Both the position numbers and the translations under genes were made by a program. From a virus: a DNA stretch of 27,500 nucleotides. Of the stretch, positions 2,276-27,476 are shown one piece after another (within the stretch, counting starts at the first letter, position 1; every line of letters starts with the position of its first letter). The DNA is taken from the IMG/VR virus record IMGVR_UViG_3300044961_000060, positions 1 to 27,500 of that record; one strand, given 5' to 3'. The notes beneath the pieces were generated by a model. It saw only the letters and a program-made list of their open reading frames with translations. It was not told the DNA's origin and searched no databases.

Positions 2276-2983
2276 ATGAACGGACTGACCGAACGCTACC
2301 GCACCCTGGGCGAGCTGATGACCGAGCTGCGCGCCCGGCTGGGCTTCGTCACGCAAGGCTCCGCGTCCAAGAACAACGACACGGTGATCAAGTCGTTCTT
2401 GCAGGAGGCGCACGACTACGTGTTTGGCGAGCTGGAGCCGCCGGCCATGCGCAAGAAAACCGTCATCAAGCTGGTGGCGGGCTCGTTTCTGTACGACTGG
2501 AACAACGACGAGGAAGACGAGCCCATCGATCCGGGTCGCGTCATTTCGGTTTGGGTGCGCACCAGCGACACGATCCGAACCCCGTTGACGCAAGGCATCA
2601 CGGAACACGACCGCTCGCTGGACACCATCCGGCAAGAGCCCAGCAAGTACGACCACTTGAACGGGCAGATGGAACTGTGGCCGATACCAGATCAACCCTA
2701 TGACCTGATGGTTGAGTACATCGCGGACAAGCCGCGCTTTGAGCGGCTCAGCGATCGACCTGGCGCGCCCGACCGCCTGGTGTTTCTTTATGCGCTGGCC
2801 AACGCCAAGGCGCACTACCGGCACCCGGATGCGCAGGCTTCGGCCACGGCCTTCCAGAACATGCTCAACAAGGAGAAGTTTCGTCAGAAGGAAAACAAGC
2901 GGTTCTTCATGCAGGGTGAGACCACGCGAGGCCAAGCGCAGGTGGTACGCACGGCCAATGGTGGCTACACGCTCAGGAGCTGA
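2276..2983 (+). CDS. Head-tail adaptor (tail tube adaptor) protein
   Basis: The 235-residue product matches the general pattern of podovirus adaptor proteins that bind under the portal and start the tail. It has an N-terminal helical region (residues 8-50, ERYRTLGELMTELRARLGF, then FLQEAHDYVFGEL) and a beta-rich middle in which physical-chemical residues alternate (YDWNNDEEDEPIDPGRVISV; MELWPIPDQPYDLMVEYIAD). A C-terminal helical region with a long ANAKAHYRHPDAQ segment completes it. Its position directly before the nozzle-like gene is the usual order (T7 gp11-gp12, P22 gp4-gp10). The start is ATG 2276, only 7 bases after the preceding stop. The family assignment is from overall pattern, not a diagnostic motif. 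Confidence 0.65.
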   Translation: MNGLTERYRTLGELMTELRARLGFVTQGSASKNNDTVIKSFLQEAHDYVFGELEPPAMRKKTVIKLVAGSFLYDWNNDEEDEPIDPGRVISVWVRTSDTIRTPLTQGITEHDRSLDTIRQEPSKYDHLNGQMELWPIPDQPYDLMVEYIADKPRFERLSDRPGAPDRLVFLYALANAKAHYRHPDAQASATAFQNMLNKEKFRQKENKRFFMQGETTRGQAQVVRTANGGYTLRS

Positions 2984-2985
2984 AG

Positions 2986-4383
2986 GTGCCAGCAATCCAC
3001 TTTGACCGCTTCGACCTTGGCATTGATCTGCGCAAGGGCGCCAGCGTGTCGGACGCGAACCGACTGCTGGAGATGAAGAACGCGCACGTCACCACGGGCC
3101 TGGCCACGCAGAAGCGGCCCGGCCTGACCAAGGTGGCGGACCTGGAGCCCGGTACCAAGGGCCTGTTTGCGGCCTTCGGCAAGCTGCACACGTTCTACGG
3201 CAGCGGGACCATCACCCACGCCAACCCCCTGTTTCAGGCCAACCGGGTGCAGTTTTCTGGGGGTGCGCAGGCGGTGGCCGATGTGCCCTTTGCCGATGTG
3301 TTCAATGCCTTCATCTATTGCGCTGTGCAGTACGCAGACGGCCAAGTAGAGCATCACTACCTGGACGGTAGCCCGGCCACGCACGTGGCCGACGCCAACT
3401 GCCCCGATACACGGGCATGTTTGAAGATCGCCAGCAAGATTTTTGCAGTGGGCGCTGGCAATGCGGACGTGGTGCGCTACTCCAAGACCGGCGACCCGCG
3501 CGACTGGACCACGGCCAACGACGCCGGGTTTTTGCCGACGGGCTTGAACAGCCGGGGTGACCGGGCGGCCAACGCGCTGGGTGTGTACCAGAACAAGATG
3601 GTGGTGCTGACGCGCGACGGCGCGCAGGTGTGGGCGGTAGACCCCGACCCGACCGCCATGCGGCTGGAGGACATCGTGGAGAACGTGGGGACGAGCTTCC
3701 CGCGCACGGTGGCCAACGTGGGCGGCGACCTGTATTTCCTGAGTGACTACGGGTTCCGATCGATCACGACCCTGCAGTACACCAACAGCCTGGCCGATGT
3801 GGACGTGGGTTCGCCCATCGACTCGCTGGTGCGGCCTGAACTGAAGGTGCCGGGCGTCAGCCCCAAGAGCTTCTACTTCTACGGTACCGGCCAGTACGTG
3901 TGCGCGATCGGCAACCGCCTGTTTGTGTACTCGATCAGCCGCACGGCCAAGATTGCGGCGTGGAGCCAGTATTTCCTGAGCGCGCCGGTGGACGCCTTTG
4001 CCGAGCTGGGCCAAGAGCTGTACATCCGATCAGGCGACACGGTTTACAAGCTGAACGAGGAAGTCAGCACAGACGATGGCACCCAGTACGAGGTGCTGAT
4101 TCAGCTGCCCTACATGGACCTGAAGAAGCCCGGCATCCTGAAGCAGATTTGGGGCGCCGATGTGGTGGTGGAGGGCACGTGCTTCATGTCCATCGGCTTC
4201 GATGTGCGAGACCCCGACGCCTTTACCCCCGAGGTGAAGGTGAAGGGCAACACCCGCCCGGGTGGCCTGATTCCAGTGGAGTGCACCGGTACCGAGTTTT
4301 CCATCCGGCTGCGCAACTTTGACAACAAGCCGTTCCGCGTGGATGCCATCACCCTGCACTGGAACGATTTGGGGCCCATCTGA
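2986..4383 (+). CDS. Tail nozzle / packaged-DNA stabilisation protein (P22 gp10-like)
   Basis: A 465-residue, beta-rich protein that begins at GTG 2986, two bases after the adaptor stop, with GGAGCTGAAG as ribosome site. The N-terminus (FDRFDLGIDLRKGASVSDAN, RLLEMKNAHVTTGLATQKRPG) has the conserved style of podovirus proteins that report wild-type 'track' loops for DNA. Many short repeats follow, such as DPRDWTTANDAGFLPTG and GGDLYFLSDYGFRSITTLQ, as in beta-propeller nozzle proteins. In P22 gp10 and related proteins this subunit closes the tail and holds packaged DNA. Its place after the adaptor and before the internal proteins supports the role. The stop TGA shares its last base with the ATG of the acetyltransferase gene (TGATG). 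Confidence 0.7.
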   Translation: MPAIHFDRFDLGIDLRKGASVSDANRLLEMKNAHVTTGLATQKRPGLTKVADLEPGTKGLFAAFGKLHTFYGSGTITHANPLFQANRVQFSGGAQAVADVPFADVFNAFIYCAVQYADGQVEHHYLDGSPATHVADANCPDTRACLKIASKIFAVGAGNADVVRYSKTGDPRDWTTANDAGFLPTGLNSRGDRAANALGVYQNKMVVLTRDGAQVWAVDPDPTAMRLEDIVENVGTSFPRTVANVGGDLYFLSDYGFRSITTLQYTNSLADVDVGSPIDSLVRPELKVPGVSPKSFYFYGTGQYVCAIGNRLFVYSISRTAKIAAWSQYFLSAPVDAFAELGQELYIRSGDTVYKLNEEVSTDDGTQYEVLIQLPYMDLKKPGILKQIWGADVVVEGTCFMSIGFDVRDPDAFTPEVKVKGNTRPGGLIPVECTGTEFSIRLRNFDNKPFRVDAITLHWNDLGPI

Positions 4384-25256: not shown

Positions 25257-26270
25257 GTGACCGCCTACTACAACGAAATCGACCCGAGCGCGGCCCAGTG
25301 GCTGCGCAACCTGATCGACGCGGGCCACATCGCGCCCGGCTATGTGGACGAAAGGAGTATCGAAGATGTTTTTCCAAGCGACCTACGAGGCTTCACCCAG
25401 TGCCATTTCTTCGCCGGCATTGGCGTCTGGTCCTACGCCTTGCGTCAAGCAGGATGGAGTGATGACCGACCTGTTTGGACTGGTTCCTGTCCGTGCCAAC
25501 CTTTCAGCGCGGCAGGCAAAGGAACTGGGTTTGATGACGAGCGGCACCTGTGGCCAGCCTTTCATCACCTCATCAAAGAGTGCAAGCCTGCAACGGTCAT
25601 TGGAGAGCAGGTTGCAAGCAAGGACGCTGACGCTTGGATCGACCTTGTACACACTGACCTGGAAGCAATGGGTTACGCCTTCGGGGCGGTCCCGTTTCCG
25701 TCTGCGGGCGTCGGTGCGCCGCACATCCGAGACCGGCTTTACTGGGTGGGTCACTCCAGCCGCGCGAGATTGGAAGGACACCCCGGGCATGGTCGCGCAG
25801 CGCGACGGGCGGGATCGACTGGACCAGTTGCCACGGCAGGCCTATCTGGCTGGGTGGCCGACAACGACAGCGGCGGATGCCAGCCGTGGGGTGAAGGAAG
25901 CCCGGCCGTGGGACACGGGCAAGCCGCTGGGGCAGATCGTGGCGTTGGCGGGCTGGCCAGCACCTCAGACCAGCGACAGCACGGGCGGCGGGCAAGCGAA
26001 ACGTGCGATGGGGGATACACGCCACGGCTCGAATCTGAACGACTTTGCGATGCTGGCATTGCCAGCCCGACTAACGGATTCTGGCGAGCTGCTGACTGGC
26101 TCCTGTGCCGCGATGGAAAGTGGCGGCCAGTTGAACCCGGCACATTCCCGCTGGCTCATGGGGCTTCCTCCCGAGTGGTGCGCCTGCGCGCCTACGGCAA
26201 CGCCATCAACGCGAAAGCTGCCCAAGTCTTCATTGAATGCGTGATGGATGGGTTGGAGGCATGGGAATGA
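25257..26270 (+). CDS. C5 cytosine-specific DNA methyltransferase
   Basis: The 337-residue enzyme shows the motifs of C5 methyltransferases. Motif I is FFAGIGVWSYALRQAGW (AdoMet binding). Motif IV is SCPCQPFSAAGKG, with catalytic Cys80. Motif VI appears as VIGEQV (the usual ENV triad is EQV), motif VIII as RDRLYWVG and motif X as YGNAINAKAAQVFIECV. The region between VIII and X is Gly/Arg-rich and would be the target-recognition part. The GTG at 25257 starts the domain. It may protect phage DNA against restriction. The stop overlaps the next ATG (ATGA). Almost 87 percent of it is overlapped by a second ORF in the +1 frame, so its amino-acid composition between motifs may reflect double coding. 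Confidence 0.85.
   Translation: MTAYYNEIDPSAAQWLRNLIDAGHIAPGYVDERSIEDVFPSDLRGFTQCHFFAGIGVWSYALRQAGWSDDRPVWTGSCPCQPFSAAGKGTGFDDERHLWPAFHHLIKECKPATVIGEQVASKDADAWIDLVHTDLEAMGYAFGAVPFPSAGVGAPHIRDRLYWVGHSSRARLEGHPGHGRAARRAGSTGPVATAGLSGWVADNDSGGCQPWGEGSPAVGHGQAAGADRGVGGLASTSDQRQHGRRASETCDGGYTPRLESERLCDAGIASPTNGFWRAADWLLCRDGKWRPVEPGTFPLAHGASSRVVRLRAYGNAINAKAAQVFIECVMDGLEAWE
25366..26244 (+). CDS. Overlapping conserved phage protein inside the methyltransferase gene (+1 frame)
   Basis: A 292-residue ORF in the +1 frame, wholly inside the methyltransferase gene. ATG 25366 has a strong AAAGGAG site (25351-25357) at the right distance. I recognise the protein as a recurring phage hypothetical: VRANLSARQAKELGLMTSGT, LGSTLYTLTWKQWVTPSGRS, LRASVRRTS, and an ending AAMESGGQLNPAHSRWLMGL with PPEWC. 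A Trp-centred motif repeats: GWVTPAARDW, GWPTTTAADAS and GWPAPQTSDS. No function is known. Its ordered, Trp-bearing sequence makes a chance ORF unlikely. Both frames seem to be coding. It lacks catalytic motifs that I can name. Confidence 0.72.
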   Translation: MFFQATYEASPSAISSPALASGPTPCVKQDGVMTDLFGLVPVRANLSARQAKELGLMTSGTCGQPFITSSKSASLQRSLESRLQARTLTLGSTLYTLTWKQWVTPSGRSRFRLRASVRRTSETGFTGWVTPAARDWKDTPGMVAQRDGRDRLDQLPRQAYLAGWPTTTAADASRGVKEARPWDTGKPLGQIVALAGWPAPQTSDSTGGGQAKRAMGDTRHGSNLNDFAMLALPARLTDSGELLTGSCAAMESGGQLNPAHSRWLMGLPPEWCACAPTATPSTRKLPKSSLNA

Positions 26271-26479
26271 AGCTGTACTGCGCCCTGTGTGGCCGCCCGA
26301 TGGACCAGGCGGCCGTTCTGATCGGCAATCACCCAGTCGGGCCGAAGTGCGCCCAGCGTGCCGGCCTGATGCCGCTGGCCCAGCGCAAGAGCGGGCTGGT
26401 GTTCCCTGTCCTGCGCCTCAAGCTGGCCAAGCCGCAACAGCCGCAGACCGCCGACCTGTTTGAAGAGGCCGAGGCATGA
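26267..26479 (+). CDS. Small Cys-containing phage protein
   Basis: A 70-residue protein starting at ATG 26267, which overlaps the methyltransferase stop by ATGA and lies 8 bases after GGAGG (26254-26258). An in-frame ATG at 26261 is too near that ribosome site. CALCG at residues 5-9 and GPKCAQR at about 25-31 form a possible zinc site, with a Pro/Gln-rich, acidic tail. It overlaps ninB by ATGA. Function unknown; common in nin-like regions. Confidence 0.6.
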   Translation: MKLYCALCGRPMDQAAVLIGNHPVGPKCAQRAGLMPLAQRKSGLVFPVLRLKLAKPQQPQTADLFEEAEA

Positions 26480-26925
26480 GCGAGCGGACCGTCATCCGAT
26501 GCTGGGAACCGGTGCAGGCCCACAAGGCCATGACCGGCCAGCTGTGGCCACTGCTGAAGGCGCACCTGATGGCCGGCCGCCGCATGGTGGTCGAGGCGCG
26601 CGAGGAAACGCGAAGCCTGGCCGAGAACGCCATGCTCCACGCCCTGCTGACCCAGATCAGCAAGCAAGTCGAGTGGGCCGGCAAGAAGCGCGACGTGGAA
26701 ACGTGGAAGCGCCTCCTGACCGCCGCATGGTGCCGAGCCCGAGGCGAACACATCGAAATGCTGCCCGCGCTGGATGGCCACGGGGTGGACATCGTGTTCC
26801 GCCGCACCAGTCAACTGACCCGCAGCGAATGCGCCGAGCTGATCGAGTTCGTATTGGCATGGGCTGCAGAGCATGGAGTGCACACCGGCAGGGTGGACCC
26901 TGAGACCGGGGAGATTTACCAGTGA
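26476..26925 (+). CDS. ninB: NinB-like recombination protein
   Basis: A 149-residue protein of the NinB/Orf family. It shows the family core RSLAENAMLHALLTQISKQV followed by EWAGKKRDVETWKRLLTAA, then VDIVFRRTSQLTRSECAELI and a C-terminal VLAWAAEHGVHTGR. In lambda Orf (NinB) is a recombination mediator that binds SSB and supports single-strand annealing, so it may work with the SSB and ERF of this phage. ATG 26476 and GTG 26922 overlaps tie it to both neighbours. Confidence 0.85.
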   Translation: MSERTVIRCWEPVQAHKAMTGQLWPLLKAHLMAGRRMVVEAREETRSLAENAMLHALLTQISKQVEWAGKKRDVETWKRLLTAAWCRARGEHIEMLPALDGHGVDIVFRRTSQLTRSECAELIEFVLAWAAEHGVHTGRVDPETGEIYQ

Positions 26926-27476
26926 AGTCGTGCAAGGTGTGTTCCGAGTATTTCAGCCCATCGAGGCCGATGCAGAAAGTGTGCTCGCCCAGCTGCGCGA
27001 TGAAGCACGCCAGAGCCCTCGCGGAAAAGAAGCAGGCCAAAGAGCAGGCGCAAGAGCGCAAGGCCATCAAGGCCAAGCTGCAGGCAATGCAGACCAAGCC
27101 CCAGCTGGTGAAGAAGGCCCAGACGGCATTCAACGCATTCATCCGCGCCCGTGACGCCGGCAAGCCCTGCATTTCCTGCGGCCGACCACTGGGCACCGAG
27201 CCCAACACCTACGACTGCGGACACTACCGAAGCGTGGGCAGTGCGCCCCACATGCGGTTTGTGGAAGACAACGCCCATGGCCAGTGCAAGCACTGCAACA
27301 ACCACCTAGCCGGGAACCACGTCGAGTACCGCAAGGGCCTGATCGAACGCATCGGGCCCCGGGCGGTGGAGTTGATCGAGGCCGACAGCACCCTGCGCAA
27401 GTACACCCATGAGGGATTGATCGAGATTGCCCGGTACTACCGCGAGCAAGCCCGCAAGCTGGGGGGCAAGGCGTGA
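26922..27476 (+). CDS. ninG: NinG-like (Rap) recombination protein
   Basis: A 184-residue protein of the NinG/Rap family. Zinc ligands C4-C7 (CKVC) and C21-C25 (VCSPSC) form the N-terminal finger, followed by a Lys/Gln/Glu coiled helix (about 30-58). A C-terminal domain has CISCGRPLG, DCGHYRS, HGQCKHCNNHLAGNHVEYR and a helix ending YYREQARKLGG. Rap is a structure-specific nuclease acting on recombination intermediates. Start is GTG 26922 overlapping the ninB stop (GTGA); the stop overlaps the next GTG. Confidence 0.88.
   Translation: MKSCKVCSEYFSPSRPMQKVCSPSCAMKHARALAEKKQAKEQAQERKAIKAKLQAMQTKPQLVKKAQTAFNAFIRARDAGKPCISCGRPLGTEPNTYDCGHYRSVGSAPHMRFVEDNAHGQCKHCNNHLAGNHVEYRKGLIERIGPRAVELIEADSTLRKYTHEGLIEIARYYREQARKLGGKA

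Follow-up and report, generated by a model that had tools for sequence, protein, structure and literature searches.

The window analysed here is a 27,500-nucleotide stretch of DNA from a 27.5-kb virus record (IMG/VR record IMGVR_UViG_3300044961_000060). In it, a gene for a predicted C5-cytosine DNA methyltransferase (MTase) encloses a second gene in the +1 frame. Computational analysis finds the locus to be dual coding: both frames are under purifying selection, the motifs of the enzyme are divided between them, and relatives exist in which the two halves are split or fused. It is highly probable that the nested product is the β subunit of the MTase, and that a two-subunit C5 enzyme is encoded by a single stretch of DNA.

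All features of the locus itself given below lie on the + strand. The α frame, for the catalytic subunit, spans 25257..26270 (1,014 bases, 337 amino acids, GTG start). The β frame, for the putative recognition and motif-IX subunit, spans 25366..26244 (879 bases including the stop, 292 amino acids), and its sequence has a Shine-Dalgarno element, AAAGGAG (25351..25357), 8 bases 5′ of the ATG at 25366. A preliminary description of the window had listed the MTase gene, the AAAGGAG, the ATG and the nested frame, and every one of its coordinates was reproduced.

Openness and initiation of the nested frame

The +1 frame is open across nearly the whole gene in 80 of 80 viral loci picked by their nested protein and likewise in 80 of 80 picked independently by their MTase protein, counts that are not independent events since the loci are related by descent. 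In the MTase-picked set the open stretch has a median of 93% of the matched MTase length; the +2 frame is stop-rich, its longest open stretch having a median of 17%.

Expected stops were obtained for 131 distinct relatives by reshuffling each gene's own synonymous codons. Over 25461..26045 no nested-frame stop was observed against ∼268 expected, and over the leader (25368..25461) there were 8 against 60, while 5′ of the nested ATG stops were above expectation (241 observed, 178 expected). The +2 frame of the same 131 genes showed no overall stop depletion of this kind. The first ∼32 nested residues (25366..25461) thus form a leader that is kept open, as stop depletion shows, with a sequence that is unconserved and MTase wobble variation that is still high; constraint on the nested frame at the amino acid level starts near 25470–25490. 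Stops or frameshifts in the nested frame of most relatives, which the preliminary description had set as evidence against its proposal of a dual-coding locus, were not found.

The ATG at 25366 is present in 114 of 130 relatives. At the MTase codon that generates it, 117 genes have GAT and 10 have GAC, and elsewhere in the MTase gene GAC exceeds GAT by ∼2:1. In 73% of genes a Shine-Dalgarno match of 4 nt or more lies 5′ of this ATG, as compared with 15% for other ATGs. The nested start codon and its Shine-Dalgarno element are conserved more than the MTase frame requires. As an alternative β start we considered ATG 25462, where conservation begins, and rejected it; it is a start codon in just 47 of the 130 relatives.

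Selection on both frames

Variation at MTase wobble positions is 0.44–0.57 in codons 1–80, drops to 0.12–0.35 across the bulk of the conserved nested region, and climbs again past the nested stop. Where an amino acid is shared, codon identity is 1.2–1.35 times the expected level ahead of the nested core and mostly 1.7–2.9 times that level inside it.

Ratios of nonsynonymous to synonymous change (dN/dS) were computed in the style of OLGenie, from pairwise counts classed by their effect in both frames, using a simple estimator on 18 pairs at 85–98% identity without multiple-hit correction. For the nested frame they were 0.18–0.23 in the N-terminal core, 0.30–0.46 in the variable part and 0.24–0.40 in the C-terminal block; the corresponding MTase values were 0.07–0.10, 0.54–0.81 and 0.22–0.36. 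Upstream of the nested gene the nested-frame ratio was 1.2–1.9, and for the +2 frame in the same regions NN/NS (N, nonsynonymous; S, synonymous) was 1.6–3.0, with SN/SS lower at 0.56–0.69 on few counts. Both frames are thus under purifying selection, the nested one being held more tightly than the MTase frame in the variable part. The earlier proposal of a dual-coding locus selected in each frame is thereby upheld: with nested dN/dS at ∼0.2–0.5, selection is not confined to the MTase frame.

These results bear on an alternative in which the nested frame is untranslated and its openness is a by-product of MTase conservation and high-GC codon usage. Stops are indeed few in high-GC DNA, and conserved MTase residues do fix some nested residues, but such effects leave the 0 stops against 268 expected over 25461..26045 unexplained, as well as wobble constraint found only inside the nested region, the contrast of nested dN/dS (about 0.2–0.5) with the upstream 1.2–1.9 and with a +2 NN/NS that is mostly at least 1, and the conserved start codon and Shine-Dalgarno element. 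This alternative is already contradicted, and we give it practically no weight.

The catalytic chain and what it lacks

The α protein matches PF00145 (E=3.3e-14) and phrog_363 (E=1.4e-90), and from its ordered motifs it is assigned to the C5-cytosine DNA methyltransferases. Motif I (FFAGIG, 25407..25424) was placed by motif inspection and by alignment A3 (89 sequences), in which PCQ, E117, R158/R160 and GNA are conserved. Motif IV (PCQPFS, 25491..25508), aligned to M.HhaI, contains the catalytic Cys, with P79, C80, Q81 and S84 invariant in A3. Motif VI (25602..25613) reads GEQV in place of ENV, with E117 and V119 invariant, and motif VIII (HIRDR, 25722..25736) has R158 and R160 invariant; motif X (RAYGNAI, 26187..26207) has G314, N315 and A316 conserved. 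The preliminary description had named motifs I, IV, VIII and X, and all were found in that order, with motif VI (Glu) in addition.

In the window α, no small domain carrying a target recognition domain (TRD) and motif IX was found in the same chain, and no motif IX occurs in frame. An AlphaFold model of α gives the catalytic core (residues 1–173, with a predicted local distance difference test score, pLDDT, of about 90) and the C-terminal helix with confidence; residues ∼174–279, at the position of the small domain of C5 enzymes, are predicted to be disordered (pLDDT mostly <50). Over 25776..26093, by pLDDT and dN/dS, β is constrained where α is weakly selected and predicted to be disordered. 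Foldseek with this model gave M.HhaI as the top PDB match, and also M.HaeIII, over ∼190 of about 325 positions. In more distant MTases that have no β frame (phi1207.3, BtpYZU03), a standard motif IX is encoded by the MTase frame itself.

Only 2 of 328 distinct α-type open reading frames (ORFs) have a motif-IX-like string in frame, and both are apparent frameshift mosaics. The contig represented twice among our numbered loci as L290 and L318 was considered as a fused single-chain enzyme and rejected, as the β N-terminus persists in the other frame; with α and the C-terminal half of β joined in one frame, it looks like either a frameshift mosaic or the result of a sequencing indel. L397 resembles it. 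Immediately 5′ of the L397 MTase is an ORF (∼2554–3880) with reverse-transcriptase-like sequence (YVDD). Locus L191, in which the frames were swapped, was left out of use.

The nested product

The β protein matches phrog_1008 (E=1.7e-37) and phrog_31772 (E=2.6e-35), as do the β proteins of the split relatives described below. Both families are labelled ‘DNA methyltransferase’, a label silent on a non-catalytic partner chain and on the overlap of most members with an MTase encoded in a different frame.

Three repeats are evident in the β sequence: GWVTPAARDWKD (25744..25779), GWPTTTAADASR (25852..25887) and GWPAPQTSDSTG (25951..25986). They accord with the repeated GW.TP motif noted earlier, GW..P falling at nested residues 127, 163 and 196. 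Among relatives a β protein has 0–7 GWxTP-like modules, mostly 2–4, a variation in copy number that is no more than suggestive of tandem recognition modules for different sites.

The nested C-terminus, which had been thought conserved from its appearance, is in fact conserved among relatives as PARLTxSGxxLTGSxAxMESGGQLNPAHSRWLMGLPPEW, and within it the block LNPxxxxWLMGxPxxW is near-invariant in 117 relatives. In the window this motif-IX-like block is LNPAHSRWLMGLPPEW (26131..26178). Scanning with WxEWLMGFP brought in a much more divergent set of loci, where motif X of the MTase lies in the overlapping frame in 104 of 110 complete distinct cases, in the β frame in 3, and is unresolved in 3.

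The likeness to motif IX comes from a profile of the split-type β tail. Its only matches among 177,635 PDB sequences were to a plant DRM DNA methyltransferase (4onj, 4onq), pairing LNPDWVEWLMGFPIGWT with LEPDEVEMLLGFPKNHT (motif IX), followed by the motif X LGN, in register, at E=0.12. Pfam searches with split-type β proteins gave nothing significant, the best being PF00145 at E=0.028 in 3 of 11.

Split and fused relatives

In a number of relatives (L224/L303, L227, L285, L289, L294, L297/L316, L310, L315, L317 and L320) the α ORF does not extend beyond motif VIII, and the β-frame ORF runs through the modules and the LMGFP block and then into motif X. Since α ends there and motif X is on β, the split enzyme should need both chains. 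The split form of L224 is confirmed by independent contigs (L283, L303), L261 likewise has a β with motifs IX and X, and Gordonia phage Jumbo has the split form.

In mycobacteriophage ShiLan gp70 and Gordonia phage Baddon gp4, motifs I–VIII, a β-type motif IX and motif X are all in a single chain, and gp70 also has PTP modules. The β profile matches ShiLan at E=4.8e-10 and Baddon at 9e-4 (7,386 shuffled decoys). These proteins share the β-type motif IX with the window locus; theirs is one frame and one chain.

Two further alternatives can be weighed here. The nested frame may be a real gene with its own function, for example in anti-restriction or in regulating the MTase, that has nothing to do with the architecture of the enzyme. 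Selection on the nested frame shows merely that the protein matters, and β has no recognised domain, both of which such a function would accommodate. It does not accommodate the shift of motif X to the β chain in split relatives, the fusion of the halves in ShiLan and Baddon, the absence of motif IX from α, or the finding of β exclusively alongside MTases of this group, and we regard it as unlikely. The preliminary description had suggested either a partner of the MTase or an anti-restriction factor; the partner is strongly favoured, β looking like a recognition and motif-IX subunit, and we found nothing to support a stand-alone anti-restriction factor.

Alternatively, programmed frameshifting could join the two frames into one α–β chain, much as fused single-chain forms do occur in nature. 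This is less likely still: a conserved ATG and Shine-Dalgarno element belong to the nested frame itself, and α is usually open through its own motif X, which a frameshift product would therefore lack.

Comparison with known two-polypeptide methyltransferases

The β gene of M.EcoHK31I, as Lee et al. reportedly described in 1995, sits within the α gene in a different reading frame. M.EcoHK31I is a two-polypeptide C5 MTase acting at YGGCCR, with motif IX alone on the small polypeptide (PMC3404938). The window locus resembles it in motif layout, with motif IX on a separate smaller chain and motif X on the large chain, and its small-subunit frame is inside its large-subunit gene (25366..26244 in 25257..26270). 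M.EcoHK31I is one restriction-modification enzyme, whereas genes of the window type are carried by phages in which no partner nuclease is evident. M.AquI (CYCGRG), a naturally split C5 MTase, has motifs I–VIII on α and the distal variable region with motifs IX–X on β (PMC3404938). This layout, with IX and X on the small chain, matches the split relatives (L224, L227, L289 and others); the window locus differs in having motif X on α and an overlap that spans the whole of β. The locus is an instance of an already known, rarely noted two-polypeptide type, which is far more widespread than we found reported.

Several points weigh against β as the recognition and motif-IX subunit. The predicted TRD of M.EcoHK31I was placed in the large subunit (PMC3404938), while the recognition modules of the window locus appear on β, the small one. 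The motif IX match depends on a short block (E=0.12), and Pfam and NCBIfam do not recognise β. The AlphaFold model of β alone, from 117 sequences, is of low confidence (pLDDT 59.7; predicted template modelling score, pTM, 0.26), and Foldseek with it found no PDB match, although a low-confidence fold would be expected if β folds only on α.

Distribution and existing annotation

The arrangement is repeated in hundreds of phages. Nested frames are present in phages N15, epsilon15, PMG1, K1ind2, PhiXhv-28, RcIroh, phiKX1, Lc-Nu, Honeybear, Bas71 and Bas48 and in a Nodularia phage; the overlap recurs in phages of Proteobacteria, Firmicutes and cyanobacteria, and the split and fused forms occur in actinobacteriophages. 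In bacterial and archaeal genomes, scanning yielded 196 matches that were confirmed, and the best 80 of them were retained. The β protein was seen only alongside an MTase of this group. One viral contig (L190) has two MTase/β loci in tandem (matches at 818–843 and 1860–1885).

Some records annotate both frames; those of N15 and epsilon15 annotate one only. The remark, in the preliminary description, that second-frame proteins are annotated in other phages proved correct for K1ind2 ORF28, Xanthomonas phage PhiXhv-28 and Paenibacillus phages Honeybear and Likha. ORF28 of Escherichia phage K1ind2, called ‘Mte8-like protein’ as in K1 coliphages, is a coding sequence wholly nested in the gene for a C-specific methylase and ends with the same motif-IX-like block as the window β; it carries a name and no function. 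In Paenibacillus phages the nested frame is annotated as a second DNA-cytosine methyltransferase (L413, 1451–2155; L422, 1151–1855), and the Honeybear annotation bears the note ‘Not called by any programs’. Literature searches, with subscription journals outside their scope, returned no report of phage MTases with overlapping frames.

Downstream of the window MTase are two ORFs (26476–26925 and 26922–27476) that by eye are like lambdoid NinB and NinG.

Significance

Under the two-subunit reading, ribosomes starting at 25257 would make α, the catalytic domain with motifs I, IV, VI, VIII and X, and ribosomes starting at the ATG at 25366 in the +1 frame would make β, with the recognition modules and the motif IX that α lacks. 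The two chains would combine to form an active enzyme for the methylation of phage DNA, its repeats presumably reading the DNA sequence, and the methylation would most likely protect against host restriction. With somewhat less than even confidence, we suggest that such loci make up a large class of phage C5 MTases not linked to one another before, in which the catalytic gene is overprinted with a recognition subunit whose exchangeable GWxTPxxxD modules vary in number.

If so, one stretch of DNA codes for catalysis in one frame and for specificity in the other. Same-strand overlaps that are long and strongly selected in both frames are, to our knowledge, rare outside small viruses. The two-subunit reading assigns a function to protein families that currently go by hypothetical, ‘Mte8-like’ or ‘DNA methyltransferase’, and it implies that many phage cytosine methylases pass for complete in annotation while half of the enzyme sits in another frame; recoding codons when cloning such a gene would silently destroy the partner chain. 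The graded series of one-chain, split and fully nested forms would show how the two parts of an ancestral enzyme ended up on the same DNA, and provides a natural series for studying the origin of dual-coding genes.
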